The notes: generated from the letters alone by a model not told the origin. DNA of 64,000 nucleotides from Microlunatus phosphovorus NM-1 (GCF_000270245.1 NC_015635.1:248001-312000); one strand, 5' to 3'; shown: positions 25,821 to 52,291, numbered from the stretch's first letter. Translations and numbers: made by a program.

Positions 25821-26059
25821 GCCGCAGCCTCCTCGGCGAGGTACTCGCTGATGTCGTCGACCGTCTTGAACTCGAACAGCGCGACCGGGTTGATGTCCAG
25901 GTCGAGCTGCTTGCGCAGCCGGCTGATGATCTTGAGCGCCTGCACCGAGGACACACCGAGCCGCATGAAGCTCGCCTGGTCGTCGATGTCGGCCGGTGGG
26001 ATGGCGATCTCGGCGGAGATCTCCTGCAGGAGCACGGTCCTGATCGTTTCCTTGGTCAT
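25817..26059 (-). CDS. Free-standing carrier protein with an LGVSS site
   Basis: An 80-residue carrier protein. The modification site is LGVSSVQALKI, with Ser38 taking phosphopantetheine and Ser37 replacing the usual aspartate. Helix 2 and the VALFEFKTVDDISEYL end fit a modular PKS/NRPS carrier more than a fatty-acid ACP. It lies 16 nt after the free KS gene and overlaps the aminotransferase gene, so KS, carrier and aminotransferase look like one module split into three genes. Confidence 0.9.
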   Translation of the reverse strand: MTKETIRTVLLQEISAEIAIPPADIDDQASFMRLGVSSVQALKIISRLRKQLDLDINPVALFEFKTVDDISEYLAEEAAA

Positions 26060-26075
26060 GGTTCCTCTTTCGCGG

Positions 26076-33900: not shown

Positions 33901-36900
33901 CGCCGTCCGCGAGCGCGGCGTTCAGCGGCTTGAGCAGCACCACGCCACAGCCCTGGCCACCGACGGTGCCGTCGGCATCCTCGGAGAAGGGCCGGCACAC
34001 ACCGTCCCGGCTGAAGATCATGCCCTCGGACCAGGCGTAGCCCTCCCGGCGGGGGAAGTTCAGCGCGACGCCGCCGGCCAGCGCCATGTCGGCGTCGCCC
34101 TGGCGCAGACACCTCACCGCTTCGTGGACGGCGACCAGCGAGGTCGAGCAGGCTGACTGGACGGTCATCGCAGGACCGGTCAGGTTCAGCTTGTAGGCCA
34201 CCTTGGTGGCCAGGAAGTCCTTCTCGTTGGCGGTCAACACCTCGTACGCGCCGATCGGGTCGCTGTTGCGACCGAGCAGGCCGGCCACCCAGGCGACGTT
34301 GCTGCCGCTGCCGGCGAACAGGGCGATGGTGGCCGAGTGCTCTCCCGGTACGTAGCCGGCGTCCTCGAGGGCGTGCCACGCGGTCTGGTGCAGCAGCCGC
34401 AGCTGCGGGTCCATCGTCTCGGCTTCCTTGGCGGAGTAGCCGAAGAAGTCGGCGTCGAAGACGTCGGCCTCCACGACACCGCGTGCGTTGACGTAGCGGG
34501 GGTCATCGATCAGGTGCTCGGGGATCCCGGCGTCCCGCAGCTCGGCGGGTGTGTGCCGGGAGATGCTCACCCGGCCGTCGAAGCGGTTGGCCCAGTACGT
34601 GCTCAGGTCGGGCGATCCGGGGAACTCACCGGCCACCCCGATCACCGCGATCTTGCGCTCGTCGCCGGATCGCTGCTCGGGCCAGTCGTCGAGGGCCGCG
34701 AGATCGTCCAGGGTGATGGGCGGATCGGTCTCCGGGTCGGCAGCGTCTCCCTGGTCATGGCGGTCGGCGTGCGGCCGGCTCAGCACGTCCGCCAGGCTCT
34801 GGGGCGTCGGGTGCTCGAACAGCTGGGTGAGTGGCACTTCCACGCCGAGCGTCTCGGCCAGCCGGTTGTTGACCAGCATCAGCTTGTAGGAGCTGCCGCC
34901 GACATCGAAGAAGTTGTCGCCCGCCCGGACGGCCTGGCCGAGGACGGACTCCCAGGCCGCCAGGATGTGGTCCAGCGTCTCCTGAGGTGTGACTCCGGGG
35001 GCTGCCTGTGCGGGGGCTGACTGTTCGGGGGTCGACGCGGGAGTCGGGGCATCGAGGACGTCGGCGCCCCGCTGCGTGGTCAGGAGCCGCAACGCGGCGC
35101 GGTCCACCTTGTCGTTCGGCAGCACCGGAAGCTCAGCCAGCAGCCGGATGCGGGCGGGTCGCATGTAGGAGGGCAGGGCTGCGGCGACCTCGGCCCGGAT
35201 CTGTGTGGCGCGGTCGACGCCGTCCCTGGTGCAGTGGTAGAGGACGAGCGCGTCGTCCTCGACCGCGGCGACGGCATAGCTCACGCCGGCCACGCGCATC
35301 GCCGTCTGCTCGAGCTCGCCGAGCTCGATTCGGTTGCCGTTGACCTTGACCTGTTGGTCGATCCGCCCCAACACCTGGATCTCGCCGTCCGCGCGGCGCA
35401 GTCCCGAGTCGCCGGTGCGGTAGACCGTGATCCCGGGCAGTTCCCGGATCTCGGTGAACGCGTGGGCCATCCGCTGGGGATCGTTGGTGTAGCCGAGGGC
35501 CAGTCCTGGGCCGGCGATGCAGAGCTCACCGGTCACGCCCGCGGGCGCGATCGCGCCGGACTCGTCGACGATCAACGCGGCGGCACCGCGGATGGCGGTG
35601 CCGACCGTGATGTCGTCCCCGCGAGCGAACTCCTTGACGGTGGCGGTCACCGTCGTCTCCGACGGGCCGTACATGTTGAACACGCGCGCGTCGGTCTCCG
35701 CCTGCAACAACCCGAGCAAGCTCTCCGCGAAGTGCTCGCCTCCGCAGACGACGACCCGGAGATCCCGAAGCCGGTCGCGGAAGCGCGGGTGCCCGCACAG
35801 GGCAGCCATCTTCGACACCGGCATCTGGACGTGCGTCACGGCGAAGGCGGTGATCCGGGTCGCGATGGCGGCTGCGTCCTTCTGGTCGGCCACCGGGCAG
35901 ATGTGCACGCTCGCACCGCATGCCAGCGGGATGAGGCTCTCGAAGGTGAAGATGTCGAACGTCGGGTCGGCCAGGCTGATGATGACGTCGCCCGGCGCGA
36001 ACAACCGTCGCTCCTGGTGGTCACGCAGCAGGTTGGCCACTCCGCGGTGGGGGATGACGATGCCCTTCGGAGCACCGGTCGAGCCTGACGTGTACACGAC
36101 GTAGACGGGGCTCTCGGCGGTGACTCGTGTGCCGTCGACCCCTGTGCCGTCGACCTCCGTGCCATGGGAGGCATCGAGGGTGCCGAGCCGAGCTTGGGTG
36201 CAGGTCGCGATGTCGAAGACGGTCGGGATGGCCGCGGCCGACGCCAGGCCCGCGGGCGCGAACCCGAAGCGGGGACGGAGGTCGTCCAGGATGCGGGCGT
36301 GCCGCGCGGCCGGCTGCGACGGGTCGAGCGGCAGATAGGCCCCGCCCGCCTTGAGGATCCCCAGCTGGGCCACGAAGAGGTTGACGTCGCGGACCGCGAA
36401 CAGCGCGACCGTCTCGCCCGTACGCAGACCGGCGGCGCGCAGCCGGGCCGCCTGGGCGTTCGCCATCTCATCTAGTTCGGCGTAGCTGTAACGATCACCG
36501 GTGGCGTCGATGAGCGCGGTCGCCGCCGGCGTCCGGGCGGCCTGCGCGGCGATCACGTCGTGGATCGACCGGAACGGCTCGTCGATCAGACGAGCACGGA
36601 TCTCCTCCGCCGCCGAGGGGCTCGGGAGCTGGTCGAGCCGGGCTCCGGCGTCCTCGCACACACTGGCCAACACCGCGTCGAGCTGCGCGACCAGGTGCTC
36701 GATGGTGGTGCCCAGGAACACGTCCGCCGGGTAGTCCACCTGCATCCTCAGCCCATCCGCCGACTCGGTGCAGGTGATCACGAGGTCCATCCCGACGGCG
36801 ACGGGCGGCAGCTCGAGTTGATGAGCGGTCACGCCGTCGATGTCGAGCTCGTGGTGTTCGATGTTGTGGTAGTCGAGGGAGACGTCGCACAGTGGGTGCC

Positions 36901-39900
36901 GTGCGGCGTGGCGGCGTACGCCAAGGCGCTCGACCACCCGGTCGAACGGCACATCCTGGTGGGTCAAGGCGCTCAGCACCGACTCCCGGGTCTGCTCCAG
37001 GCAGTCGCTGAATGTCGTGTCCGCCGTCGGTCGCAGCCGGATCGGCATCAGGTTCACGAACATCCCGGCCATCTCGGCCGTCTCGGCCAGGGTTCGTCCG
37101 GTCACCGGCACGCCGACGACCAGGTCGGCGCGGCCGGCGGTCCGGGCCAGCACCAGCCCCCAGGCCGCGAGCATCGTCATGAACGGGGTCGCGGCGTGCC
37201 GGTCGCCGAGCCGCTTGATCGCCTCCACCCGGTCCACCCCGAGCCGCAGCTCGACGCGCCCGGCCGATGGCTCCCGACTTCCGCGAGGGTGATCGGGGAT
37301 CAGCAGCTCGTCGGTGGGAGCATCCCGGAGGCCGGCCACGAGTTCGTCCTCGGAGGCGGTGAGGGCATCGGAGCCCTCGAGCTGGGCCAGGTGCATGACC
37401 ACGTCGGTGTACTGCAGCGGCAGCGGCGGCAGTTCCTCGCGGTAGAGCCGGCTGAAGTCACGGCTGAGGATCTCGGCCGAGGTCGCGTCGGCGACGATGT
37501 GGTGGATGTCGAACAGCAGCAGGCTGCCCGCCGCGCCGCCGTCGACGATCGCCATCCGAAACAGCGGGCCGCGCTGCAGATCGAACGGTCGGACGAAGTC
37601 CGCCATCAGGCCGGCGACGGCCTGATCCGCGGTGTCTGCCGTGAGGTGCTCCAGCGGCCACTCCGCCGGCAGCTCCTCCACCGGCGTGATGCGCTGCCTG
37701 ATGTCACCCTGACGCTCGAGGAAGGTCGTCCGCAACGGTTCGTGCCGGGCCGCCAGCCGGCGCAGCGCCAGGCGCACCCGATCGAGATCGAGTGACCCGT
37801 CCAGACGGGTGGCCGAGGCCATGTTGTAGACGAGCCCTGCTGGATCCAGCTTCGCCGCGAGGTACATGCGTTGCTGGGCGGGGCTCAGGGGATAGTCCGG
37901 GGCTGGTGCTGCCTTGCGCATCGAGCGGACGGAAGCCACCGGCGGACCACCGATTTCGCCGATTCCGCCGAAGCGCTGGGCCAGGCCGGCGGGCGTCGAG
38001 GTGGCGAAGACATCGGCCACCGTCACGGTGACGCCGAGCCGCTGTCGCAACTGGGCAGACAGCCCGGTCGCCTTGAGCGAGTCGCCCCCGAGGCTGAAGA
38101 AGTCGTCGTCGTCGGCCACGACCGAGTGTCCGAGCACGTGCTGGAACGCGGCCCGAACCTCCCCCAGCGCCCCGGACTCCGACCTCCCGGGGCCAGACGT
38201 CCCGGCACCGGACGCCTCGGCGCCGCCCAGGGGTGGTGGGGCGATCGAGAAGGGGATCGAGACGGTGGGCTCCGCCGGCGGCCTCAGGTCGCCGACCCCG
38301 CGGTCCTGCACGTGCGGTGTCTCGTCGAAGACGTAACCCGGCAGCGAGATCCGGCGGCCCGAGTCGTGGGCGCCGTCGAGAGGCAGCCCGGCACCCCACA
38401 GCCTGCCCAACGCGCCGAGCAGGTGCTGCTCGTCCGGGGTCGTCTCGGCCGCGTGGCGCAACACGTTGACGAATACCTGGTCCGGCCGCCGCGTGGGTTC
38501 CTGGGCCGCGAAGCTGGTCAGGGTCTGGCCGGGACCGAGCTCGATCCCGAACAGTGGCCCATCGGACAGCAGCGTGCTCAGGCACGTCGCGAACCGGACC
38601 TGGTCGGTGATGTGCTGGCCCCAGTAGTGCGGATCGGTCAGCTCCCCCGCCCGCGCCACGCAGCCTGAGCGGTTGGAGATGACCGGGAGCTCGGGGTCGC
38701 GGCTCTCGACCTCGGCGACGGCGTCGGCGAAGGCGCAGGCGGCCTCGGCCATCAGCGGAGTGTGGAAGGCGTGCGAGGTCTGGAGGCGGCTGCCCCAGAT
38801 CCCTTCGAGCTCCAACCGGTCCAGTACGGCGTCGAGCGCTTCGCCGGTCAGGCCCAGGACGGAGCGTTCGGCCGAGTTCTCCAGGGACAGCCAGACCCCC
38901 TCCAGATCGGCGATGACGTCGCGAACCCGAGCGGCAGGCGCCGAGACGGCGATCATCACCCCGGGCTGCTGGGCCTGCATCAGCATCCCCCGGTGACGGA
39001 CCAGGCGGACCGCGTCCTCGATGCTCCAGACGCCGGCCACCGCCGCCGCGGTGAGCTCGCCGATGCTGTGACCGACCAGGACGTCGGGCGTGATCTGGTA
39101 GGACTGCAAGACCTTCGTCATCGCGTACTGGGTGCTGAACAGCGCGAACTGGGACCACTCGGTCCGGTTGATCCGCGGGTCGGCCTGCCCGTAGATGACC
39201 TCACGGAAGACGTCGGCGTCGTCGGCGGGGAGCAGGGCGACCAGTTGGTCCATCCAGTGGCGGAAGCACTCTCCATCGGCACTGGAGCTGTGGTAGAGAT
39301 CGCGACCCATGCCGCAGTACTGGTTGCCCTGACCGGAGTAGAGCAGTGCGGTGCGAGCGCCGGCGACCGTCGACGTCGCGGCCGCTGCGGCGATCCGCTG
39401 CGGCCAGGTGTCGCGGGCTTCGTCGGCTGCGACCACGAGGGTCTTGCGGTGCGGCAGCTGCGCCCTGCCGCGTCGCAGGGTCGTGGCCACGTCAGCGGTC
39501 GCGATGTCAGGGTGCTCGACCAGATGGGTCAGCACTCGGGCAGAGGTCCGCTCCAGGGCCTGCGGCGACGCCGCGCTGAATTGCAGCAGCTCGTACGGCT
39601 GTGGTCGCGAGCGGTCGTTGCCGTCGGTCCCGGCCCGGGGTGACCCGGAATCGAGCACCGACGGAGCCTCTTCGATGATCATGTGGACGTTCGTCCCTCC
39701 GACGCCGAAGGAGTTGATTCCGGCGCGACGTCGTTCGCCGGGCCAGGCTCGGCCCTGGTCGAGCACCGTGAAGGGGGTCGCGGCGAAGTCGATGTGTGGG
39801 TTGGGCGACTCGTAGTTGCAGGTCCCCGGCAGATACCGGCGCTGCAGGCTGAGGGCGACCTTGCTCAGGCCGACGGCCCCGGCGGCGGAGTCGGTGTGTC

Positions 39901-42900
39901 CGACGTTGCCCTTCACCGAGCCGAGCAGGCAGTGACCCGCGGGGGCGTCGGCGAAGGCGCGGGTGAGCGCGGCCACCTCGACGGGGTCGCCCAGCAAGGT
40001 GCCGGTGCCATGCGCCTCGACGTAGCTCACTGTGGCCGGATCGATCCCCGCGGACTCGTAGGCGGCTCGGATCGTCTCGTACTGGCCGTCCTCACTCGGT
40101 GCGGTGTAGGAGCCCTTTCGGCGGCCGTCGTTGCCGACCGCCGAGCCCTTGATCACGGCGTAGATCGGGTCGTGGTCAGCCAGGGCGGCCGCCAGCGGCT
40201 TGAGCAGCATCAGGGCTGCGCCGTTGGAGAACACGGTGCCGCGGGCCTTGGCGTCGAACGGTCGGCAGTGCCCGTCCGGGGACAGCATCATCCCGTCGAC
40301 GTAGCGGTAGCCACCGTCGTTGGGCAGCTCCAGGGTGACACCCCCCGCCACGGCCAGGTCGCACTCCCCGGTGCGCAACGACTGCACCGCGAGGTGGACG
40401 GTGAGCAGCGACGTCGAGCAGCCGGTCAGTGCCGAGAGCGACGGCCCGGTCAGATCGAACTGGTACGACAGTCGCGTGCCGAGGAAGTGGTTGGTGGCCA
40501 GCGTGAAGTTCTGGTAGGCCTCGCCGAACACCGCCGGGTTCTGCAGACTCCTGCCGTACCAGGCGAAGTCGTCGTTGCCCCCGACGAAGACCCCGACTCG
40601 TCCGGGCAGCGACGTCGGGTCGTAGCCGGCGTCCTCGCACGCGCGCCAGAACGTCTTGTAGAGCAGTCGCAACTGCGGTGAGGTGACGTCGACCTCGGCG
40701 GGCGGGATCGCGAACAGGGCGTCGTCGAAGGAGTTCACTCCCGTGAGCCGGCCGGCCGCCTTGACGTAGTGGGGATCGCGGAGGTCGCTCTCGGCCACCC
40801 CGAGCCCGCGCAGGGCGTCGTCGTCGTAGAAGGTGATCGTCTCCTCACCACCACGGAGCTGCGCCCAGAACTCGTGGACGCCACCGGCCCCCGGGACCTG
40901 CAGACCGATGCCGATGATCGCGACGTCGTCGCTGCGGGCCTCAGCGTGGCGATCGTGATCGGGCTCGACGCCCGCGTCCAGAAGCAGCTTCGCCTGCTCG
41001 CCCACCCGCCGGAACCTCAGCAGGTCGGTGATCGGGATCTGCTGCCCGAACTCCTGCTGGATCAGTGCCTGCAGCCGCACCACGTTGAGTGAGGTCCCGC
41101 CCTGCTCGAAGTAGGACCGATCAGGATCGATCGTCGAGCTGCCCAGCGCCGCGCGCCACAGTCTGCTGAGGCGTTCGGCGACGGGCGAGGCGGGCGAGGC
41201 GGGTGCTGCCGGTGGTTCGACGACCGGTCGCTCGCTCACCTGTCCCAGCAGGACTCGTCGGTCGAGCTTGCCGGCCGCCGAGGTGGGGAGCTGCCCCAGC
41301 TGGATCAGTTCCGCCGGAAGCTGCTGCGGCTCCAGGGTCCGCGCCAGCTCGGCCCGGACGGCGCCCGCGTCGAGGTGACGCCGGGCGGTGAAGAAGCCCA
41401 CCAGCCGGGCGGGCTCAGCGGACTCGTCGACCACGGCGGCTGCCTCGACGATCCCGTCCACCCTCAGCAGCGCGTGCTCGACCTCGCCGAGCTCGACCCG
41501 CACGCCGCCGACCTTCACCTGCCGATCGTTCCGCCGCAGGAAGGCCAGCCGCCCGTCCGCCCGCAGATAGCCAAGATCGCCGGTACGGTACATCCGCCGC
41601 TGGTGCGACTCATCGGTCGCCGGGTCGTACCACGGGTTGTCGACGAAGTGCGCGGCGTTCAGCTCCGGCCGGTTGAGGTAGCCCGCCGCCACACCCGGAC
41701 CCGCGATGCACAGCTCGCCGGGCACCTCGACCCCGCAGAGTTGATCGTCGCGGCCCAGGACGTAGACGCGGTAGTCATTCAGCGCGGTGCCGATCGGGGT
41801 AATCGCCATCGCGGCGTCGGCCTTCCGCACGGTCGTGTGCGTCGCCCACATGGTGGCTTCGGTCGGTCCGTAGACGTTCTCCAGCGAGCAGGTCAGGGAG
41901 AGGGCGAAGAACCGGTCCACCACGTCGGTGGTCAGCGCCTCACCGCCGCAGAACAGGTACCGCAGCGAGGTCAGGTCGTCGGTCCGGTCCTGGGTCGCCA
42001 CCATCTCCAGGAGCAGCCGCAGCATGGTCGGGGCGAAGTTCACGTGGGTGACACCGGCGTCCCGGATGGCGCCCAGGAGGGCGCCTGGGTCTCCTTCCAG
42101 TCCGGTCGGCAGGATGGCCAGACGCCCGGCTCCGACGAGCCACCCGTACACTTCCGTGCCGAAGATGTCGAAGCTGAACGACGTCTTCAGCAGGTAGACG
42201 TCCTCGGGGCCGAGCGGGTAGAGCCGCTCCAGATCGATAGCGGTGTTGTAGAGGCTGTCGTGGCGGATGATCACGCCCTTCGGCACACCGGTCGAGCCCG
42301 ACGTGTACTCGATGTAGAGGACGTCGTCGGAGTGCAGCTCCACCGCATCCGGTTGTTCGGAGCTGCGGGTCCGCTCGTCGGTGTCGAGCGAGGTCAGCTC
42401 CTCCCACGTGTCGAGGTCCAGCCGAACCATCCCGTCGGGCAGCGCGAGGTCCAGGTCGGAGATCGTGAGGACGGCGCTGACACCGGCGTCGGTGAGGATG
42501 GCGGTCCGGCGCGCGGCCGGCGTGGTCGGCACCAGTGGCACGTACGGCCGCCCGGCCAGCAGGGTCGCGAACACGCCGACGAGCAGCTGGACGCCGCGGG
42601 GGAGCAGGATGGCGACGGGTCCGGAAGTGTCGCCGAGAGCTCTCCGCAGCCGACGCTGGACGAGGACGGCGGCATCGTGCGCCCACGCATTCGTATAGCT
42701 TCTCGTCGCGTCGCTCCAGGCGATCGCGGACGGATCGGCCTCCGTCTTGCGCAGGAACGCCGCGCCCAGATGGACCGGTTCCCAGTCGCGGTGATGCGTG
42801 TCGGACAGCTGCGTCAACAGCGCCGTGGTCTCGGCGTCAGAGTCGATCCGCAGGCACCCGGCTGGCGCGTCCAGGTTGGCCGGCACCTGCTCGAGCAGCC

Positions 42901-44206
42901 GCAGGTAGCGGCGGCCGAAGCGTCGGATCTGGTCCAGCGACAACGCGGGCTCCTTGAACTGGAAGACCAGTTCACAGTTGTCGCCGATCTGTTCGACCAG
43001 CACCGTCAGCAGGCCCGGGAACCGTACCCGATCGGATGTCGCCGCGCCGCGGACCCCCGCGGGATGCCCGGGGTAGCGGTCCTGGATGAAGGTGATGTCG
43101 AAGATCGGCTTCGTGGCGGGCCGCTGACTGAGCAGGTCGGTGATCGGGAAGTTCAGGTGCTTCCAGGTCTGCAGGATCTCGTGGCTGAGTCGCTCCAACA
43201 CGGCGCGCACGGTGTGCGCCGGTGCGGCGTCGACCAGGATCGGCAGGGTCTTGAGGAAACAGCCGATGCTCTGCTCGGCTTCCGGCGACGAGCGGTCGGT
43301 GAACGGGGTCGCCACGCTCACCTGATCGGCATGCGCATACTGCCCGAGCAGCACACCGAAGACCCCCAGGTACACGGTGAACTCCGAGACCTCCGCTTCC
43401 TGGGCGGAACTCCGCAGCGCCCGGGCCAGTCCCTCGTCCACGGACATGCGGACTTCGCGGCCCGTCAGCTCACCCGTAGCAGGGGTGATCCAGTGGGAGA
43501 GGTTCGGGGCCTCGTGTCGACTCAGGCTGTGCTGCCAGAAGTCGCTTCGGAGAGCTGCCTTCCTGTCCGGCAGAGCCGAGGCCTGGTGTCGCTGGTAGAT
43601 CTCGAAGCCGGTATCGCGCGGGACGTCGCGATCGATCGGCTCACCGCCGACAGCGAGCTCCATCAGCTGCTCGGCCAGGATGCTGACCGACAGCCCATCG
43701 GCGATGAGGTGGTGGCAGACCACGATCAGGCGGTCCTCCGCGTCGAGACGGCAGTGGGCGACACGGAACAAGGGAGGCGCCGAGAGGTCGAAGGCGGCGC
43801 CCGCCGTAGCTTCGGCTATCTCGCTCAGTTCGTCACGTACGGCGAGAGCATCGGGACGCCCCCGCAGGTCGTGGTGGACCAGGGACGGCTCGACCGAGTC
43901 CGCGAGCACGTAGGACACGCCGTCGACCCCGGCGGCGACCGCGCTGCGCAGCGCCGGCTGTCTCGTCATGAGCAGCCGGATCCCGGAATCGATCCGCTCC
44001 GGCTCTATGGGGTCGATCCGCAGCTGCAGCACCACGTTGTAGTCGGCGGGGTCCTTGACCTGGCTGTCGACGAACATGCCTTGCTGCGCGGGCGCCATGG
44101 GCAGAACCATCTCGGGCGACGCGACACTCAGTTCGCTCGCCTCCTCGGCATCACGCCATCGAGGTGTGGCCGTCCCCCGTGCTCGTCCTGTCATAACCAA
44201 AAACAT
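27917..44206 (-). CDS. Hybrid NRPS/PKS megasynthase, C-A-T-KS-AT-T-C-A-T-KS-(AT relic)-T-C-A-T-C
   Basis: A 5,429-residue assembly line (numbers from the ATG at 44206). C1 34-455 (HHLIADG 165-171); A1 475-985 (TSGSTGVPKG, Lys980); T1 Ser1039; KS1 1093-1515 (Cys1263, His1399, His1437); AT1 1617-1915 (Ser1714 in GHSIGE; HAFH 1812-1815, malonyl type); T2 Ser2043; C2 2104-2540 (HHIVADA); A2 2545-3035 (Lys3033); T3 Ser3106; KS2 3185-3600 (Cys3353, His3489, His3525); AT relic 3601-3865 without GHSxG; T4 Ser3931; C3 3995-4430 (HHIVADQ); A3 4436-4920 (Lys4914); T5 Ser4971; terminal C4 5025-5429 (HHSIFDG). No KR, DH, ER, MT, epimerase or TE domain is visible. Eye-aligned A-domain pocket residues are DITNFGVMW, DIFQVGMVT and DPLIYGLVC; I cannot assign substrates. 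The ATG at 44194 is the better start, since 44206 falls within a -10-like hexamer. Confidence 0.95.
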   Translation of the reverse strand: MFLVMTGRARGTATPRWRDAEEASELSVASPEMVLPMAPAQQGMFVDSQVKDPADYNVVLQLRIDPIEPERIDSGIRLLMTRQPALRSAVAAGVDGVSYVLADSVEPSLVHHDLRGRPDALAVRDELSEIAEATAGAAFDLSAPPLFRVAHCRLDAEDRLIVVCHHLIADGLSVSILAEQLMELAVGGEPIDRDVPRDTGFEIYQRHQASALPDRKAALRSDFWQHSLSRHEAPNLSHWITPATGELTGREVRMSVDEGLARALRSSAQEAEVSEFTVYLGVFGVLLGQYAHADQVSVATPFTDRSSPEAEQSIGCFLKTLPILVDAAPAHTVRAVLERLSHEILQTWKHLNFPITDLLSQRPATKPIFDITFIQDRYPGHPAGVRGAATSDRVRFPGLLTVLVEQIGDNCELVFQFKEPALSLDQIRRFGRRYLRLLEQVPANLDAPAGCLRIDSDAETTALLTQLSDTHHRDWEPVHLGAAFLRKTEADPSAIAWSDATRSYTNAWAHDAAVLVQRRLRRALGDTSGPVAILLPRGVQLLVGVFATLLAGRPYVPLVPTTPAARRTAILTDAGVSAVLTISDLDLALPDGMVRLDLDTWEELTSLDTDERTRSSEQPDAVELHSDDVLYIEYTSGSTGVPKGVIIRHDSLYNTAIDLERLYPLGPEDVYLLKTSFSFDIFGTEVYGWLVGAGRLAILPTGLEGDPGALLGAIRDAGVTHVNFAPTMLRLLLEMVATQDRTDDLTSLRYLFCGGEALTTDVVDRFFALSLTCSLENVYGPTEATMWATHTTVRKADAAMAITPIGTALNDYRVYVLGRDDQLCGVEVPGELCIAGPGVAAGYLNRPELNAAHFVDNPWYDPATDESHQRRMYRTGDLGYLRADGRLAFLRRNDRQVKVGGVRVELGEVEHALLRVDGIVEAAAVVDESAEPARLVGFFTARRHLDAGAVRAELARTLEPQQLPAELIQLGQLPTSAAGKLDRRVLLGQVSERPVVEPPAAPASPASPVAERLSRLWRAALGSSTIDPDRSYFEQGGTSLNVVRLQALIQQEFGQQIPITDLLRFRRVGEQAKLLLDAGVEPDHDRHAEARSDDVAIIGIGLQVPGAGGVHEFWAQLRGGEETITFYDDDALRGLGVAESDLRDPHYVKAAGRLTGVNSFDDALFAIPPAEVDVTSPQLRLLYKTFWRACEDAGYDPTSLPGRVGVFVGGNDDFAWYGRSLQNPAVFGEAYQNFTLATNHFLGTRLSYQFDLTGPSLSALTGCSTSLLTVHLAVQSLRTGECDLAVAGGVTLELPNDGGYRYVDGMMLSPDGHCRPFDAKARGTVFSNGAALMLLKPLAAALADHDPIYAVIKGSAVGNDGRRKGSYTAPSEDGQYETIRAAYESAGIDPATVSYVEAHGTGTLLGDPVEVAALTRAFADAPAGHCLLGSVKGNVGHTDSAAGAVGLSKVALSLQRRYLPGTCNYESPNPHIDFAATPFTVLDQGRAWPGERRRAGINSFGVGGTNVHMIIEEAPSVLDSGSPRAGTDGNDRSRPQPYELLQFSAASPQALERTSARVLTHLVEHPDIATADVATTLRRGRAQLPHRKTLVVAADEARDTWPQRIAAAAATSTVAGARTALLYSGQGNQYCGMGRDLYHSSSADGECFRHWMDQLVALLPADDADVFREVIYGQADPRINRTEWSQFALFSTQYAMTKVLQSYQITPDVLVGHSIGELTAAAVAGVWSIEDAVRLVRHRGMLMQAQQPGVMIAVSAPAARVRDVIADLEGVWLSLENSAERSVLGLTGEALDAVLDRLELEGIWGSRLQTSHAFHTPLMAEAACAFADAVAEVESRDPELPVISNRSGCVARAGELTDPHYWGQHITDQVRFATCLSTLLSDGPLFGIELGPGQTLTSFAAQEPTRRPDQVFVNVLRHAAETTPDEQHLLGALGRLWGAGLPLDGAHDSGRRISLPGYVFDETPHVQDRGVGDLRPPAEPTVSIPFSIAPPPLGGAEASGAGTSGPGRSESGALGEVRAAFQHVLGHSVVADDDDFFSLGGDSLKATGLSAQLRQRLGVTVTVADVFATSTPAGLAQRFGGIGEIGGPPVASVRSMRKAAPAPDYPLSPAQQRMYLAAKLDPAGLVYNMASATRLDGSLDLDRVRLALRRLAARHEPLRTTFLERQGDIRQRITPVEELPAEWPLEHLTADTADQAVAGLMADFVRPFDLQRGPLFRMAIVDGGAAGSLLLFDIHHIVADATSAEILSRDFSRLYREELPPLPLQYTDVVMHLAQLEGSDALTASEDELVAGLRDAPTDELLIPDHPRGSREPSAGRVELRLGVDRVEAIKRLGDRHAATPFMTMLAAWGLVLARTAGRADLVVGVPVTGRTLAETAEMAGMFVNLMPIRLRPTADTTFSDCLEQTRESVLSALTHQDVPFDRVVERLGVRRHAARHPLCDVSLDYHNIEHHELDIDGVTAHQLELPPVAVGMDLVITCTESADGLRMQVDYPADVFLGTTIEHLVAQLDAVLASVCEDAGARLDQLPSPSAAEEIRARLIDEPFRSIHDVIAAQAARTPAATALIDATGDRYSYAELDEMANAQAARLRAAGLRTGETVALFAVRDVNLFVAQLGILKAGGAYLPLDPSQPAARHARILDDLRPRFGFAPAGLASAAAIPTVFDIATCTQARLGTLDASHGTEVDGTGVDGTRVTAESPVYVVYTSGSTGAPKGIVIPHRGVANLLRDHQERRLFAPGDVIISLADPTFDIFTFESLIPLACGASVHICPVADQKDAAAIATRITAFAVTHVQMPVSKMAALCGHPRFRDRLRDLRVVVCGGEHFAESLLGLLQAETDARVFNMYGPSETTVTATVKEFARGDDITVGTAIRGAAALIVDESGAIAPAGVTGELCIAGPGLALGYTNDPQRMAHAFTEIRELPGITVYRTGDSGLRRADGEIQVLGRIDQQVKVNGNRIELGELEQTAMRVAGVSYAVAAVEDDALVLYHCTRDGVDRATQIRAEVAAALPSYMRPARIRLLAELPVLPNDKVDRAALRLLTTQRGADVLDAPTPASTPEQSAPAQAAPGVTPQETLDHILAAWESVLGQAVRAGDNFFDVGGSSYKLMLVNNRLAETLGVEVPLTQLFEHPTPQSLADVLSRPHADRHDQGDAADPETDPPITLDDLAALDDWPEQRSGDERKIAVIGVAGEFPGSPDLSTYWANRFDGRVSISRHTPAELRDAGIPEHLIDDPRYVNARGVVEADVFDADFFGYSAKEAETMDPQLRLLHQTAWHALEDAGYVPGEHSATIALFAGSGSNVAWVAGLLGRNSDPIGAYEVLTANEKDFLATKVAYKLNLTGPAMTVQSACSTSLVAVHEAVRCLRQGDADMALAGGVALNFPRREGYAWSEGMIFSRDGVCRPFSEDADGTVGGQGCGVVLLKPLNAALADGDHIYAVIAGSAVNNDGGQKMGFTAPSVGGHEQVIRAALADAGVAADAVGFVEAHGTGTSLGDPIEYAALARAYGQNRPCALGSVKANIGHLDAAAGIAGLLGAVGVLRRGQIPPMAGFTGLNSRIEQQGSLFVPSKVMVPTDELRLAAVSSLGIGGTNAHIVLERAPERPADESELGPCVLPVSARTDDSRRRMQEALEAFCHGGAPLRDVSYTLAQGRAQYPSRAAAVAAADRTFRWIEPSDDSAALNVSDDVDLVLGSTVRDDPTPAGAALRAALERELHGFDADVRERLRAALEGSRSVPVGVCRVAQFVLRAAVLRVTGPDALFARPGSDRLLRIAAAAVRGELRSDQIVTRLRDGVAPTSPSTSPADAVSLVSGPVDAALVRELLVSLWVHGTDVDRSLFCTPGRRVPLPGYAFERRRFTSDVRLDHLLGLSHPTPTPVAQPALPASAPAPASATADQPTATVDAIRATWSEVLGTAPTPDADFLASGGDSLTAVRFCALLADRAGAELTVADVFAHSRYRDLASLAESRRSRSEPAACLVPVLPQPAPADARAPQVVPASPAQQRLYAACALQEDTTAYNLALAYRVVGPLDVDALRAVFARLVARHEQLRTSFHLEGGRLMQHIHACGDDVVSVLHLSAAQAAARRQARPRSFDLSSAPLLRVEVVRVSAEEHFLSLDLHHIVADQTSLAVLSDEITAELQGHPVAGAPISYTDYVADLQARTQSGAFDQDVAFFAELLDGEIPRLELPTDRTPSGAATHEGARHTFVSTARRRDVADLARACGATPYMVHLTALTRLLSLYSGQPEFVVGTAVSGRTMRGSEQVVGMFANTLPLRLRAAAEHSVADAVGTVRDDVLALLAHQEAPLDQVLAQLRPAAGGPDDALFDVLVNYVTVGTDEPELDGLRLELQPPGPIMSRYALSVSIAERADDFEVDIEYRTELFDAGTISRLAQQLDLLLVELTVDPSRPLRDLRLESPAELARRRAELTAAGPEIDSSLLDRLRTALTEHAHRTALSWHGREWTYAEVDRITDSIAGGLQETGVGVGDFVVCLVERDPWQVFCRLALLKCGAIEIPQDPQTPLPRLAHILADSGARVVLATDPGAHPWSAEVTAYRPDALAGSYTPPADLTAASPLILIYTSGTTGQPKGTLVSHGGVLSASVDNGYMDYRPDQRIMYLTGSTFDPSLLDLYATLLSGATLVLGDHTLNQDMAMLTRFLREERIDAGILITAVFHLLMAEDPAAVSGLTALYVGGEAMQPWAARRAFDVLGPGRLYNLYGPTEASVCSTWYRVDEAPEGDRMPIGYPARNRELFIVHPDGTDVPRGVPGELCVAGPGVALGYHHRPDLTSERFPAEIGAIRRRLYRTGDRVVLDERGRIVYLDRTDRQIKHAGHRIELSEIEFAVQACTGVGEAVVVHTKDGNDSRLTAFYTGASAPDEDDLRAALHAALPPHLVPQHLVRLPGLPLTPHGKVDHRLLASQAQPARTEDAGPTVTTAATDLTILATFREVLGRPELGLDDDFFAAGAQSLQAIAVVRRLRETGLEVQISDLYRHPSAAALAVILSATAGNAGVWSEPSATRTLAAEQVRRLVTWAVADSVRVAEAFTDEQPDYRFEIGAAARLHRSSGAATGGYLHAIDHVALSQLKDAVAAIVLRHEMLRARLVGDHFEVLPPEAFEGLAPLLAVLDLRGVEPQQLQQVTEEVAAALPEEAFGSGLLWRCVILQDTDDSVRLVWAFHHSIFDGFSAGILREEITCLVRGADLTTVQPYSRYAEAVAVEPDWGTELASYDYAGWLTANASLLDAPASARPRGRRSLRLERHNPLELAIRTVHEELSRLSGQRSIAVGLVNDCRRWLGQDYTDCVGEFLDVVPVLLRDGAGTHGIAERLDRTREEGVHFLDGLSTTPDRSGLLGDLQQVYRNEQGRLQLTLVNFQGHIPAHEMPQTTADGPGLAHTHVNVWHDDEHLHLEWLADSVESLEATSIGARS

Positions 44207-44225
44207 ACCGGGCGGCCGGTTTGTT
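44202..44225. promoter_or_regulatory. ARE-like gamma-butyrolactone receptor box at the megasynthase promoter
   Basis: AACATACCGG-GCGG-CCGGTTTGTT resembles the autoregulatory elements bound by ArpA/ScbR-type receptors, with inverted CCGG half-sites and the typical CGGTTTGTT end. On the minus strand it contains TATGTT (44207-44202), a -10-like hexamer placed so that transcription would start at or near the ATG at 44194, giving a leaderless message. Receptor binding here should block the operon. Confidence 0.75.
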
Positions 44226-44233
44226 CAGTAGGG

Positions 44234-44254
44234 CCGTCTCACCTATAGAGACGG
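44234..44254. promoter_or_regulatory. Inverted repeat between the two ARE boxes
   Basis: Perfect 7-bp arms CCGTCTC and GAGACGG around ACCTATA, in the middle of the divergent promoter region. It could be an activator or second-regulator site, or a small structural element; nothing else identifies it. Confidence 0.45.
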
Positions 44255-44296
44255 ATAGTCATTGACGTCGGAAATCTGCGACTAGCACGGCCAAAA

Positions 44297-44323
44297 GCCT
44301 ACCGGTCGACCGGTTTGTATGTT
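44297..44323. promoter_or_regulatory. ARE-like box and -10 hexamer of the afsA-type gene
   Basis: CCTACCGGTCGACCGGTTTG followed by TATGTT (44318-44323, plus strand). The palindromic TACCGG-CCGGTTTGT core matches the box at 44202-44225 and lies 94 bp from it in the same orientation. The hexamer is correctly placed for a start near 44330, leaving a leader with a good ribosome-binding site (AGGAG, 44354-44358) before the ATG at 44369. Confidence 0.75.
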
Positions 44324-44368
44324 TAGTGTGTCCAGCAGACCAATAACTTGTCTCAGGAGACGCCAGTC

Positions 44369-45229
44369 ATGCCGCTGAATTGCACCGACCGCAGCACCGC
44401 CAGCTGGCGGGAAGTCACGCACAAACTGCACGACGAGAACGTCATGGTCACCTGGGTCGACGCACCCGAGAGGGGCGAACTCCTGGCTCTGGGCGACCGG
44501 TGCACGGTCGAGCTCTCACCGCGCATCGAGGGATGCCTCCTGACGTCTGCGGCAGCGCAGTCGCCGACGTTGCTGACTCTGGAGGCCCTTCGGCAGGCCG
44601 GCCTGGCCCTGGCTCACGTCTGCGGTTCGGCGGCGGTGGGGGTGACCATGCTCGCCAATGCGATCAGACTGCAGTGGCGCCGGCCGCCGGAACACCCGCC
44701 CGTGCGGGTGTGGTGCTCCATCGTGGTGACCGACGTCGTCTACCGCCGCGGGCGTCTGCACCGGCTGACGTTCGACGCCGAGATCTGCGACGAGACGACC
44801 CCGCTCGCGTACGGGCACGGTGACATGACCTGCATCCCGCACGCCGTGTACGCACGGATGCGTCGGGACGCCGCCATGTCGGAGCCCGCCGGGCGCCCGC
44901 CACAGCCGCTGTCCGATGTCGTCGTCACCGACAGTCGGCTGACGGCACGCACGGACTGGGACACCTCCGACCGGTTGATCTTCGACCATCCACTCGACCA
45001 CGTCCCGGGGATGCACTTCGCCCTGGCTGCGCTGCGCACGCACGCCGCTCTGCGCGGCGTGGACTGGACCGAGGATCGTGGCGTCGAGCTGCAGTTCAGC
45101 ACACTTGCCGAGCTCGATGGCGACCTGACGGTCAGTGCCCGGAGGGAAGTCGGCTACACGGCGATCGATTTCCACCAGGGCGGCAGCACGGTCGCGACCG
45201 CGCGGTGTCCAGATGAGGTGCTTGCCTGA
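44369..45229 (+). CDS. AfsA-type gamma-butyrolactone signal synthase
   Basis: A 286-residue protein with the two hotdog repeats of the A-factor synthase family. The first repeat has PTLLTLEALRQAGLALAHVCG and the second has RLIFDHPLDHVPGMHFALAALRTHAAL, both close to the AfsA pattern (LLAE-RQAG-LAH and DHPLDHVPGM). AfsA joins a beta-ketoacyl-ACP chain to dihydroxyacetone phosphate, the key step to gamma-butyrolactone autoinducers. ATG 44369 is preceded by AGGAG with 10-nt spacing. It is divergent from the megasynthase, shares its ARE-bearing control region, and is convergent with the receptor gene. No reductase or phosphatase for the pathway is seen nearby. Confidence 0.88.
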   Translation: MPLNCTDRSTASWREVTHKLHDENVMVTWVDAPERGELLALGDRCTVELSPRIEGCLLTSAAAQSPTLLTLEALRQAGLALAHVCGSAAVGVTMLANAIRLQWRRPPEHPPVRVWCSIVVTDVVYRRGRLHRLTFDAEICDETTPLAYGHGDMTCIPHAVYARMRRDAAMSEPAGRPPQPLSDVVVTDSRLTARTDWDTSDRLIFDHPLDHVPGMHFALAALRTHAALRGVDWTEDRGVELQFSTLAELDGDLTVSARREVGYTAIDFHQGGSTVATARCPDEVLA

Positions 45230-45234
45230 CCGAG

Positions 45235-45260
45235 CTGACCGGCGGGTCGCCCGGTGTCAG
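45235..45260. terminator. Weak hairpin between the convergent afsA-type and receptor genes
   Basis: CTGAC and GTCAG arms with additional GGG/CCC pairing over about 26 nt, overlapping the receptor stop codon. It may end transcription from both sides; imperfect pairing and no T-tract keep this tentative. Confidence 0.35.
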
Positions 45261-45913
45261 TGCGAGGTGGCCTGGTCGGCCGCGGATTCCGTCGAGCTGG
45301 GACCGCTACTCGATTCGGGGCGCACTCCCGCTTCCAGGGCAGGACGGAGCAGGGTCCACATGTCCTCGACTCGCTCCTCGAGGTCGCCCAGGCCCGACGA
45401 GACCAGCGACACCGTCTGCAGTCCGGTGAAGGCACCGACCAGGAACCGGGCCAGCCGAGCGGGGTCCACGTGCTCGGCCAGCTCGCCACGATCCTTGGCG
45501 GTCTGGGCCACGTTGCCGACCACCCGTTCCCAGGTCTCGTAGGTCCCGGCCAGGGTGGCGTCTTCGGTCTCGCCACGTTCGACAGCGAGACGCATCGCGG
45601 CTCGCAGGGTGGGATCGTTCAACAGCCGAGCGGCCAGTTCGCGGGTCATGCTGACCAGGAGGTCGAGGTAGTTGCCCGAATACGTGCGGGCGTACTCCTC
45701 CAATGCTTCGTTGGCTTCGTTCTGGGTGAGGACCATCGCGGAAGCGAGCGCCGTCTTGGACGGGAAGTGAAAGTAGAGCGCACCCTTGGTGACCCCGGCT
45801 TGGTGAGCGATCTCGGACAGACTCGCGCCGGAGTAGCCGTGCTTCACGAAGACATCCGCGGCGGCCCGGACGATCGCGCGTCGCGTCTGCAGTGCACGTG
45901 CTTGCGTTGTCAT
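45257..45913 (-). CDS. ArpA/ScbR-type gamma-butyrolactone receptor repressor
   Basis: A 218-residue TetR-family protein whose N-terminus is the gamma-butyrolactone receptor signature: MTTQARALQTRRAIVRAAAD, VFVKHGYSGASLSEIAHQAG, then VTKGALYFHFPSKTALASAMV. The C-terminal half (LAVERGETEDATLAGTYETW, FLVGAFTGLQTVSLVSSGLGDLEERVEDMWTLLRPAL) also fits ArpA/ScbR, including the distal DL-ERVEDMW-LLRP region. ATG 45913 has GGGAGG 6 nt upstream. Together with the AfsA-type gene and two ARE-like boxes it forms a complete signal, receptor and operator set for the cluster. No ARE was seen upstream of its own gene. Confidence 0.9.
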   Translation of the reverse strand: MTTQARALQTRRAIVRAAADVFVKHGYSGASLSEIAHQAGVTKGALYFHFPSKTALASAMVLTQNEANEALEEYARTYSGNYLDLLVSMTRELAARLLNDPTLRAAMRLAVERGETEDATLAGTYETWERVVGNVAQTAKDRGELAEHVDPARLARFLVGAFTGLQTVSLVSSGLGDLEERVEDMWTLLRPALEAGVRPESSSGPSSTESAADQATSH

Positions 45914-46097
45914 CCGCAACCTCCCGTGGTCGCCGGCATGGTCTCTGGGCCTCACGTCCTGCCCCCACGGGGGCCGTGACACGCTACCAGGAGACAACAG
46001 CTCGCGACCCTGGATGATGGTGCGTCGTCAGGGTCGTCTCCGAATGCTGGTGTCGGTCGTGGGCCAGATCACACCGGCGGGAACCTCGCGGGCGGGC

Positions 46098-46283
46098 CTA
46101 TCCGCTCTTGCGCCGGAAGACCCGCTTGGCGTCGACCGGGCCGTGCGGGTGCGCGGAGGACTTGCCGGCGTCGAGATGATCCTCACCCTTACGCCCCTTC
46201 TTGGCGTCCAGGGCCTCCCGGAACTTCCGCTTGGTCTCGTCCTCCGTCGTCGCTGTCTCAGGGGATGTGTTGTCGGCGGTCAT
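46098..46283 (-). CDS. Small DUF5302-type protein
   Basis: A 61-residue, highly charged protein with the pattern ETKRKFREALDAKKGRKGED and the end HGPVDAKRVFRRKSG, which matches the small actinobacterial DUF5302 family. It has no membrane segment and is predicted to be largely disordered. Function is unknown. The gene is monocistronic, with about 180 bp of otherwise featureless DNA on the side of the receptor gene. Confidence 0.75.
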   Translation of the reverse strand: MTADNTSPETATTEDETKRKFREALDAKKGRKGEDHLDAGKSSAHPHGPVDAKRVFRRKSG

Positions 46284-47189: not shown

Positions 47190-48047
47190 TCAGCCCAGCT
47201 GGGTCATCTCCACCGTCACGAACATCTCCGACGCTCCACCGGAATAGGTGCCACGCAGCGGCGCGACATCCCCGTAGTCGCGGCCGTGCCCGACCCGTAC
47301 GTAGCGGTCCGACAGCCGTTGGCTGTGGGTCGGGTCGAAGCCGACCCAGCTGCCGCACCACCACTCGACCCAGGAATGGGACTCGCCCTCCACCGTGGTG
47401 CCCGGAGCCGCACCGTCCACCGGGAACAGGTAACCGGACACGTACCGGGCCGGCAGCCCGACCGAGCGCAGCGCACCAAGCGCGACGTGGCTGTAGTCCT
47501 GGCAGACGCCGGCACCGACCTGCCAGGCGTCCCGTGCGGTGCTGTTCACCTCGGTGGACCCGCGCCGGTAGCTGAGTCGGTCGGAGACCAGCCGGCAGAC
47601 ATCGAGCCCGGCCAACCGCGGCGGCTGACCGGAGGCCGCGTCCTGGGCAAGCTCGAACAGCTCGTCGGCCGGCTGGGTTCGATCGTTCACGGTGAGCAGT
47701 TCCGACATCGAGTAGGTCACCCCGCGGTCCCGCAGTGCGGCCCAGCCGAGGTCGCCGGTCGGCACCCGGCGTTCGGTGTCCCAGGGCAGCCCGACGTTGC
47801 GCGTCTCGACCACCGCCTGCGATCGCACGGTGAGCCGCGAATGCCGTTCGTGCACCTCGAAGGTGGTCACCGCCGTACCCCAGTAGTCGGTGTAGCCGAT
47901 ACTCCAGGCAGCAGGCTCGATGCTCAATCGGCTGCTCCAGACCGTCTGCGAGTCGCTCACACACGGCGTCATCCGCGCCTCGTTGTAGGAGGCGCGGACC
48001 GGGGAGGCATACCGGAAACCAGTGGTGTGCAGGATGTTGAGACGCAT
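47190..48047 (-). CDS. Transglutaminase-like cysteine protease domain protein
   Basis: A 285-residue protein of the transglutaminase-like superfamily with the bacterial N-terminal beta region (LNILHTTGFRYASPVRASYNEARMTP). The catalytic triad is visible: Cys in GAGVCQDYSH, His in GESHSWVEWW and Asp in GFDPTH. It is the last gene of a three-gene unit (ATP-grasp, alpha-E, transglutaminase) with overlaps of 7 and 1 nt, an arrangement common in actinobacteria and proteobacteria and thought to make or modify a peptide, though the product is unknown. Confidence 0.88.
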   Translation of the reverse strand: MRLNILHTTGFRYASPVRASYNEARMTPCVSDSQTVWSSRLSIEPAAWSIGYTDYWGTAVTTFEVHERHSRLTVRSQAVVETRNVGLPWDTERRVPTGDLGWAALRDRGVTYSMSELLTVNDRTQPADELFELAQDAASGQPPRLAGLDVCRLVSDRLSYRRGSTEVNSTARDAWQVGAGVCQDYSHVALGALRSVGLPARYVSGYLFPVDGAAPGTTVEGESHSWVEWWCGSWVGFDPTHSQRLSDRYVRVGHGRDYGDVAPLRGTYSGGASEMFVTVEMTQLG

Positions 48048-48985
48048 CAGCGGGTCCCCTCCCGAATCCAGTCGGTCTGGTCTGCGGCGGCGAAGAACGT
48101 CTTGTCGATCACTCCGGCGACGGCCGTGCTGACCCCTTGGACAGCGGTCATCTCATCGTCCAGCCCGCTCAAGATCTCCTGGATCGGGGTGTACTCCAGC
48201 CGAGCCCGCAGCCGGCCCAGCAGTCGAGCCGCTTCCGCCGACTTCTCCGCGCCGGACGGATTGGCGACCGTCACCTTTGCCAGGCATTCCTGGGCGGCGA
48301 CCAGGCCGTGCATCACCGATCGAGGGAAGCGTGAGTCCACCAGCAGGAACTCGGCCGCTTCGGCATCGGTGTAGAGCCCCTTGTAGGTCCGCAGGAAGGC
48401 GTCGTAGCCGCCCATGCCACGCAGCACGGATGGCCAGTTGGCGCTGCCGGTGGTCGGTGAGGCCGAGGCCACCATCCGTGAGGTCATGTCGATCTGCTCC
48501 AGACAGCGGCCCAGCAGGAAGAACTGCCAACCGTCGTCGCGGACCATCGTGCTGCGGGCCAGACCGTTGACCAGAGCGCTGCGATCTCGCGCCCAGTCCA
48601 GGAACGAGTACGCCCGGACGATGTTGAACTGACGGGTCGGCAGTTTCTGCCAGGTGGTGTTGATGGACTCCCAGACCTCGAGCGGAATCACCTCCCGAGC
48701 CCGCCGGGCGTTGTCGCGGGCGGCGGCCCAGGAATGGAAGATCGAGGTCGGCTCCCGGGCGTCCCAGCACAGCCGCCGTAGCAGCTCGGCCACGGTGGGC
48801 TCGGGTTGGTCAGGGGAGATGCCGACACTCATCAGCGCCAGCAGGCTGCGGCACGACTCGGCCTCGTGTCGTGAGGTGTCCTCGGCGATAACCCGGAGCT
48901 GGGTCTGCACCATCCGGGCGGTGTGATCGGCGCGCTCGACGTACCGGCCGATCCAGAACAGCGATTCCGCGATCCGGCTCAGCAT
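48047..48985 (-). CDS. Alpha-E domain protein
   Basis: A 312-residue all-helical protein beginning with MLSRIAESLFWIGRYVERADHTARMV, the standard start of the alpha-E family, and containing WEVIN-type helices (LEVWESINTTWQKLP) and FFLLGRCLEQIDMTSRMV. Members always sit beside a circularly permuted ATP-grasp protein and a transglutaminase, as here. They are presumed to cooperate in peptide bond formation on an unidentified substrate. Confidence 0.9.
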   Translation of the reverse strand: MLSRIAESLFWIGRYVERADHTARMVQTQLRVIAEDTSRHEAESCRSLLALMSVGISPDQPEPTVAELLRRLCWDAREPTSIFHSWAAARDNARRAREVIPLEVWESINTTWQKLPTRQFNIVRAYSFLDWARDRSALVNGLARSTMVRDDGWQFFLLGRCLEQIDMTSRMVASASPTTGSANWPSVLRGMGGYDAFLRTYKGLYTDAEAAEFLLVDSRFPRSVMHGLVAAQECLAKVTVANPSGAEKSAEAARLLGRLRARLEYTPIQEILSGLDDEMTAVQGVSTAVAGVIDKTFFAAADQTDWIREGTR

Positions 48986-50634
48986 GGACGCGCTCCTCGT
49001 CCACCGGCCGGCGGATTCGCCTCGAGCTGCCGACGAGCCTGCTGCTGTTGTTCGGTCTGCTGGCGCAGCGACGGCTCCTTGCCCGGCGGCTCGGCCGGTG
49101 CCTGCTGCGGTGGCGGAGCCAGCGACGGAGTGGTGTCGACCTCCGTCTCGGTCTCGGTGTCGTCGTCATCCTCAGCGGGGGCTTCGGGGAGGTGCAGCCG
49201 GAGCGGTTGGCTGAGCACCCAGGTGTCCTTGCTGCCGCCGCCCTGGCTGCTGTTGACCACCAGCTCGCCCTTGGGCAGCGCTACCCGGGTGAGACCGCCC
49301 GGCAGCACCCAGATGTCGTCACCGCTGTTCACCGCGAACGGCCGCAGGTCCACGTGCCGCGGCTCCAGCCCGGATCCGATCAGGGTCGGCACGGTGGACA
49401 GCTGGACCAACGGCTGGGCGATCCAGCCCCGCGGATCGTCGGTGACCCGGCGGCGCAGGGCGGCCAGCTCCTCCGCACTCGCGTGCGGGCCGATCACGAT
49501 CCCCTTGCCGCCGGAGCCGTCGACGGGCTTGACGACCAGCTCGTCGAGCCGGTCCATCACCTCCTCGCGGGCGTCGTCCTCCTCCAGCCGCCAGGTGTCG
49601 ACGTTGCGGATGATCGGCTCCTCGTTGAGGTAGTAGCGGATCAGATCCGGCACGTAGGTGTAGATCAGCTTGTCATCGGCCACCCCGTTGCCGATCGCGT
49701 TGGCGAGCGTGACGCCACCACTGCGGACGGCGTTCAGCAGACCGGTGACACCCAGCATCGAGTCGGAGCGGAAGTGCACCGGGTCGATGAAGTCGTCGTC
49801 GATCCGCCGGTAGATGACGTCGACGCGCCGCAGTCCGGCGGTGGTGCGCATGTAGACCCGGCCCCGCTGACACTCCAGGTCGCGCCCCTCGACCAGCTCG
49901 ACACCCATGGTGCGGGCCAGCAGGGTGTGCTCGAAGTAGGCGGAGTTGTAGACGCCGGGGGTCAGCACCACGACCGTGGGATCGTCGATCCCGTACGGGG
50001 CGGCCTTGCGCAGCGCCGCCAGCAGCCGCTGCGGATAGCCGGCCACCGGGCGGATCCGCTGGGTCCCGAAGGCCTCGGGCATGGCGGTCACCATCGCGCT
50101 GCGGTTGGTCATCACGTACGAGACGCCGCTCGGCACCCGGACGTTGTCCTCCAGCACCCGGACGTCGCCGTCCGGGGTGCGGATCAGGTCGATGCCGCCG
50201 ACATGCACGCGGACCCCGTTGGGCGGCTGGATGCCCCACACGGCGCGGTGGTAATGGCTGGAGGAGGTGATCAGCTGCCGCGGGATCACCCCGTCGGTCA
50301 TCACCCGGCCGTCGGCGTAGACGTCGGCCAGGAACGCCTCCAGGGCGCGGATCCGCTGGGCGACGCCGGAGTCGATGATCTCCCAGTCGTCGGCGGGGAT
50401 GACCCGCGGCACCACGTCCAGCGGGAAGGGTCGCTCGACCCCGCCGACATCGAACGTGACGCCGGCCTGGGTGTAGTTGTTGGCCAGCGATTCGGCGATA
50501 GACCGTAGCTCGTCGGCGCTGGACCGGCGAAGCGTCTCGTACACGGTCGAGTACGCCGCGCGGACTGCCCCGTCCGCATCGATCATCTCGTCGAACGCGA
50601 TGCCGGGCTGATAGCTCGCGAGGACGTCCTCCAT
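48979..50634 (-). CDS. Circularly permuted type 2 ATP-grasp protein
   Basis: A 551-residue ATP-grasp ligase of the circularly permuted type 2 family: early motif YNEARM-like FEYD region as DDWEIIDSGVAQRIRALEAFLADVY, then HVGGIDLIRTPDGDVRVLEDNVRVPSGVSY, LTPGVYNSAYFEHTLLARTMGVELVEG, and a nucleotide-binding region VVKPVDGSGGKGIVIGP. The last 70 residues are low complexity (acidic, then Q/A/P-rich) and probably disordered. The ATG at 50634 (MEDVLASYQPG) is used; an open frame extends far upstream but overlaps lysS. It heads the ATP-grasp / alpha-E / transglutaminase operon. Confidence 0.9.
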   Translation of the reverse strand: MEDVLASYQPGIAFDEMIDADGAVRAAYSTVYETLRRSSADELRSIAESLANNYTQAGVTFDVGGVERPFPLDVVPRVIPADDWEIIDSGVAQRIRALEAFLADVYADGRVMTDGVIPRQLITSSSHYHRAVWGIQPPNGVRVHVGGIDLIRTPDGDVRVLEDNVRVPSGVSYVMTNRSAMVTAMPEAFGTQRIRPVAGYPQRLLAALRKAAPYGIDDPTVVVLTPGVYNSAYFEHTLLARTMGVELVEGRDLECQRGRVYMRTTAGLRRVDVIYRRIDDDFIDPVHFRSDSMLGVTGLLNAVRSGGVTLANAIGNGVADDKLIYTYVPDLIRYYLNEEPIIRNVDTWRLEEDDAREEVMDRLDELVVKPVDGSGGKGIVIGPHASAEELAALRRRVTDDPRGWIAQPLVQLSTVPTLIGSGLEPRHVDLRPFAVNSGDDIWVLPGGLTRVALPKGELVVNSSQGGGSKDTWVLSQPLRLHLPEAPAEDDDDTETETEVDTTPSLAPPPQQAPAEPPGKEPSLRQQTEQQQQARRQLEANPPAGGRGARPC

Positions 50635-50703
50635 GGGGCTGAGAGTACTGGGCCCGTTGTTACCGCGACGTAAAGCCCACCGGTGGTGGGCGCCCGCGTC
50701 CAC

Positions 50704-50709
50704 TACCCT
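50704..50709 (+). promoter_or_regulatory. -10-like hexamer of lysS, leaderless arrangement
   Basis: TACCCT lies 6 nt before the GTG at 50716, so initiation at the usual distance would place the first nucleotide at the start codon. No ribosome-binding site precedes the GTG, which supports a leaderless message. The palindrome CCCACCGGTGG just upstream could bind a regulator. Confidence 0.45.
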
Positions 50710-50715
50710 TGCCCG

Positions 50716-52221: not shown

Positions 52222-52249
52222 CGACACCCAGAAGCGCCGCCTTCGAGTT

Positions 52250-52291
52250 ATGGATAGTTTCGTCACCGACATTGGAGACGAAACTATCCAT
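52250..52291. repeat. Perfect 15-bp inverted repeat between lysS and marR
   Basis: Arms ATGGATAGTTTCGTC (52250-52264) and its exact complement (52277-52291) enclose 12 nt. The element lies 28 nt after lysS and covers the marR stop at 52284. It is notably AT-rich against its surroundings. Both transcripts would run into it, so it is a likely two-way terminator, though no T-tract flanks it. Confidence 0.7.

Follow-up and report, generated by a model that had tools for sequence, protein, structure and literature searches.

We analysed a stretch of 64,000 nucleotides from Microlunatus phosphovorus NM-1 (GCF_000270245.1 NC_015635.1:248001-312000; hereafter the window, with positions counted from its first letter). 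Our subject is a pair of predicted autoregulatory element (ARE)-type operators that lie between two divergent genes, one encoding a nonribosomal peptide synthetase-polyketide synthase (NRPS-PKS) megasynthase and the other an AfsA-like protein, close to a gene for a receptor of the ScbR family. The features of this locus are as follows:

27917-44194, minus strand: NRPS-PKS megasynthase with three condensation-adenylation-peptidyl carrier protein (C-A-PCP) units and two ketosynthase (KS) units by Pfam; predicted to be leaderless from the ATG at 44194
44202-44207, minus strand: TATGTT, predicted -10 hexamer of the megasynthase promoter, starting at position 16 of the box 1 18-mer, inside the palindrome
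44203-44224, no strand: box 1, ARE-type operator ACATACCGGGCGGCCGGTTTGT, symmetric at 18 of 22 positions; 18-mer core at 44205-44222
44297-44318, no strand: box 2, ARE-type operator GCCTACCGGTCGACCGGTTTGT, symmetric at 16 of 22 positions; 18-mer core at 44299-44316
44318-44323, plus strand: TATGTT, predicted -10 hexamer of the afsA-like gene promoter, at position 20 relative to the box 2 18-mer
44355-44359, plus strand: AGGAG, Shine-Dalgarno sequence of the afsA-like gene (-7.4 kcal/mol with the anti-Shine-Dalgarno)
44369-45229, plus strand: AfsA-like protein of 286 amino acids (PF03756), with the second-domain E-x-x-R replaced by L-x-x-L
45257-45913, minus strand: ScbR-family autoregulator receptor of 218 amino acids, isoelectric point 5.3, with a good Shine-Dalgarno; convergent with the afsA-like gene

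A first, sequence-only reading of this DNA had proposed two ARE boxes with a shared core between the divergent genes, and its sequences and coordinates proved exact (first core TACCGGGCGGCCGGTTTGT at 44206-44224, second core TACCGGTCGACCGGTTTGT at 44300-44318). We scored the boxes against two consensus sequences that come from elsewhere and are independent of this locus: AWWCCRBBHDDNMSGTWT, from AvaR1 footprints (PMC5744401), and AAACVGNNBVNNCSGTTT, from SfbR footprints (PMC7480387). Box 1 matches the 18-bp AvaR1 consensus without a mismatch and box 2 with one. With both consensus sequences they rank first and second among all 18-mers of the window, with summed mismatches of 1 and 3, the next-best 18-mer having 5. 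In first-order Markov simulations of 64 kb each, equally good sites appeared at a mean of 0.06 per run, and a pair of them within 120 bp in none of 150 runs. Moreover, the core occurs without mismatch only twice in the 5,683,123-base single-contig genome, both times at this spot, and a search of 390 other genomes of the order did not find it, while three of them carry one occurrence each of a reversed control pattern. The two top ranks and the lack of any simulated pair indicate more than chance, and the match to published footprints supports the assignment of both boxes as ARE-type operators. The boxes lie 94 bp from centre to centre, or about nine turns of the helix, and cooperation between them is possible.

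The receptor scores 199.9 bits with the curated model NF041196 (cut-off 150) and is the only ScbR-family protein above that cut-off in the genome. An alignment with AvaR1 covers 191 residues, of which 69 are identical, and DNA-contact residues (T10, T42, K43 and Y47) are kept. Six of the eight residues that contact the lactone or couple its binding are also kept (Q64, W127, V158, F161, T162 and Q165), while T108 is replaced by A and T131 by V. These roles come from work on AvaR1, in which T131 binds a tail hydroxyl of avenolide (PMC7347384). Because of the two substitutions, it is plausible that the ligand is a lactone with a different tail from that of avenolide. Homologues of the receptor are present in eight other genomes of the order, and a near-perfect ARE lies within 0.3 kb of the receptor gene in two of the six homologue neighbourhoods that were read (summed mismatches of 1 and 2, the next best in each stretch having 7 and 5). 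One of these AREs (L059:9006-9023) sits on a TATGGT at position 16, as in box 1, just before a glycosyltransferase-like gene adjoining the ScbR homologue. This supports the view that ScbR-type receptors of this order use this operator and can directly control an enzyme gene. The other ARE (L064:9439-9456) is about 240 bp upstream of the ScbR homologue, with a gene for a secreted protein on its far side. A query of the genome contig collection with the receptor returned partial matches only.

It had also been claimed that each box overlaps an identical TATGTT -10 hexamer. Both hexamers are where they were said to be, and neither strand of the window has any further TATGTT (judging from shuffled sequence, about 1.4 would be expected), but their geometry is not the same: the box 2 hexamer has a single base in common with the 19-bp core and is shifted by 4 bp relative to the box 1 register. 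In addition, most of the box 1 hexamer (TATGT) is part of the ARE half-site GGTATGT, so that finding the same hexamer twice is a less independent observation than it seems. The register of box 1 has parallels elsewhere. Upstream of the gene in 11 of 17 surveyed AfsA-type loci, from Streptomyces and Rhodococcus plasmids, which are related and thus not independent events, a TANNNT starts exactly at position 16 of the ARE 18-mer, and this register is kept even where the ARE bases differ (TATCTT, TACGTT, TAGTTT, TATTTT). The aco operator bound by AvaR1 likewise has TANNNT at position 16, and the AvaR1 footprint on the aco promoter extends from -31 to -4 (PMC5744401). By analogy, occupancy of box 1 would block initiation near 44195. 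The -10 of box 2, just outside the 18-mer, would be covered if the footprint reaches a few bases beyond it, as published footprints do.

We consider it quite probable that both boxes are operators for the receptor encoded at 45257-45913, with ligand-free dimers covering both -10 hexamers, a lactone releasing them, and a leaderless megasynthase transcript and an AfsA-like transcript following. The operators, receptor family, geometry and absence of a Shine-Dalgarno were computed, and from them we infer binding, repression, start sites, ligand identity and feedback as follows. In the absence of ligand, a receptor dimer on each box would cover the -10, so that RNA polymerase is blocked at either promoter. 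Once a lactone-type signal had released the dimers, a leftward, leaderless transcript from about 44195-44194 would yield the megasynthase and probably also the tailoring and export proteins encoded downstream, while a rightward transcript would yield the AfsA-like enzyme. If this enzyme makes the signal, positive feedback would result. The earlier suggestion that one receptor could shut off both enzyme and signal synthesis thus holds in part: an ScbR-family receptor is encoded nearby, the operators lie on or against both -10 hexamers, and the sequence gives good support to direct repression at the two promoters, but the signal-synthesis role is only plausible.

Several observations weigh against this circuit. 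The -10 register of box 2 differs from that of every other site compared, and a recognisable -35 was found at neither promoter, by eye or against the GnTTnG form of Cutibacterium acnes. The AfsA-like protein scores 90.7 bits with NF041195, the curated ScbA/BarX equivalog model, below its cut-off of 200, and its second hotdog domain aligns L-x-x-L with an E-x-x-R that is invariant in 17 homologues. Finally, searches of the family, order and class with this protein gave one 33% match, which has no recognisable ScbR or NRPS neighbour, and no close orthologous locus, which makes phylogenetic footprinting of the exact region impossible.

The AfsA-like protein is where this reading is weakest. Its AfsA domain (PF03756) is above cut-off (48 bits against 24) and the first-domain E-x-x-RQ is retained; its identity to homologues is only about 25-34%, and a scan of the genome contig collection found no close relatives. 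In ScbA the second-domain residues are needed; no pertinent paper came up in a literature search on mutants of the ScbA active site. Within the same family, the sole AfsA-like relative (L010:1429-2307) likewise lacks the second-domain E-x-x-R, having A-x-x-C instead, and a small AfsA subfamily without this motif may exist. Because the protein is divergent, below the curated cut-off and without E-x-x-R, positive feedback is less certain than direct repression. Of the 'sharp positive-feedback switch' proposed from the sequence, the operators at both promoters stand, and the loop itself is only plausible. One alternative, which we regard as unlikely, leaves operators and receptor as described and has the AfsA-like protein help to assemble or release what the megasynthase makes, for example by adding a C3 unit; the two genes would be co-regulated, there would be no feedback, and the inducer would come from elsewhere. 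The divergence of the protein and its missing motif fit this idea, as does a gene that faces an assembly line, and AfsA-type domains do release polyketides in gladiostatin and gladiofungin (PMC7756379, PMC7756420). However, a thioesterase gene of the same cluster could release the chain, and in the surveyed loci it is usually a signal synthase that accompanies an ScbR receptor and an ARE. A more speculative and rather improbable reading is that this is a minimal one-receptor circuit without receptor autorepression, in which paired operators jointly hold down a leaderless NRPS-PKS transcript and an AfsA-like enzyme with altered catalysis, and that the signal belongs to an undescribed lactone class made by an AfsA variant lacking E-x-x-R.

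The start of the megasynthase transcript allows a second alternative. Leaderless genes, on average about 19% of those in Actinobacteria, are marked by TANNNT about 12 bp before the start (PMC3160421), and the same family includes Cutibacterium acnes, where leaderless mRNAs are found alongside TAnnnT -10 boxes and -35 boxes of weak conservation (PMC3848588). At ATG 44194 a TANNNT at this distance and the absence of a Shine-Dalgarno are both found: TATGTT ends 7 nt ahead of the ATG, its first base being 13 bp ahead, in a window where TANNNT occurs at 5.5e-4 per base-strand, and none of the six in-frame megasynthase starts has a Shine-Dalgarno (-1.5 to -4.2 kcal/mol, compared with anti-Shine-Dalgarno energies of -7.4 and -11.0 kcal/mol for two neighbouring genes). 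The receptor could instead bind and repress at both operators while the megasynthase transcript starts further upstream and carries an untranslated leader, the box 1 TATGTT being merely part of the half-site. This would suit a hexamer whose TATGT is forced by GGTATGT and the lack of a visible -35, yet only one other TANNNT lies on that strand in the region (TAGGCT at 44301), no in-frame start has a Shine-Dalgarno, and the -10 register recurs in 11 of 17 scbA-type promoters, including ones with other ARE bases. We judge an upstream start improbable. The hexamer alone would be a weak argument, and it is the shared register, the 7-nt spacing and the missing Shine-Dalgarno together that make a leaderless mRNA from 44194 likely, as the sequence-only reading had proposed.

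That both boxes arose by chance, as palindromes in high-GC DNA without any regulatory function, is very hard to maintain: consensus matches do turn up within a duplicated insertion-sequence gene elsewhere in the genome, but no simulation produced such a pair, the core is absent from the 390 other genomes of the order, and an ScbR receptor gene lies 1 kb away. The matches in question, perfect ones at 1.915 and 3.549 Mb, do not count as regulatory evidence. They fall in a 1.5-kb repeat, 92% identical between its copies (L040:119-1519 and L041), that encodes an insertion-sequence-like protein, and the match in the start region of this protein is a chance one.

The proposed circuit resembles antibiotic switches of a type already known, here in a bacterial family that has been little studied. 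In the avenolide system of Streptomyces avermitilis (PMC5744401, PMC7347384), a TetR-type lactone receptor, AvaR1, similarly represses a signal-synthesis gene, aco, through an ARE that overlaps the -10 in the register of box 1. Unlike the present locus, aco encodes an acyl-CoA oxidase rather than an AfsA protein, AvaR1 also represses its own gene, and the avermectin genes come under control via the regulator aveR instead of at a megasynthase promoter. In Streptomyces coelicolor the afsA-type and receptor genes are likewise adjacent, with an operator at the afsA-type promoter, and ScbA/ScbR has been proposed as a bistable switch (PMC2444045). There, however, scbA is divergent to scbR, ScbR represses itself and biosynthesis is reached through the activator CpkO, whereas here the afsA-like gene diverges from that of the megasynthase, and the receptor gene lacks an ARE. 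Indeed, no site with fewer than four mismatches was found in 45900-46200, the receptor's own promoter region; such a site is usual, not universal, among ScbR-family receptors, and both ScbR and AvaR1 repress themselves (PMC2444045, PMC5744401). In the scl (scleric acid) and mmf cassettes (PMC13307308), an ArpA-like repressor and proposed AREs control biosynthetic genes and an AfsA homologue of the MmfL type is in the cluster, but there the repressors form a paralogous pair and the signal cassette comprises three genes (mmfLHP type), against one receptor and one AfsA-like gene here. The gbl cluster of Rhodococcus jostii (PMC5735094) also places butyrolactone-type genes outside Streptomyces, and in related Rhodococcus loci a weaker ARE-like site precedes the AfsA homologue; in R. 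jostii the receptor gene is divergent to gblA and there is no megasynthase partner. The type of control is therefore already known, and what would be distinct here is the gene arrangement, the lack of a receptor autorepression site and the divergent AfsA-like protein.

No such system in Propionibacteriaceae is described in the literature searched, and the proposed circuit, if true, would add this family to those in which a biosynthetic megasynthase is under direct butyrolactone-type control. It also points to a receptor that, once removed, should release an NRPS-PKS cluster that is probably silent. Moreover, TANNNT at ARE position 16, as in most surveyed scbA-type promoters, offers a simple rule for predicting directly repressed genes.

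The genes downstream of the megasynthase on the same strand are probably co-transcribed with it:

21308-28004, minus strand: genes for a KS, a carrier protein, an aminotransferase, a thioesterase and a major facilitator superfamily (MFS) exporter

The first PKS unit of the megasynthase has an acyltransferase domain. In the second (31517-34516) and in the separate KS gene (26076-28004), both on the minus strand, Pfam finds none even at a relaxed cut-off, and a trans-acting or shared acyltransferase possibly serves both. Further along, transglutaminase-like, alpha-E and circularly permuted ATP-grasp genes stand in a row on the minus strand (47190-52272), apparently an operon unrelated to the operators and the receptor circuit.

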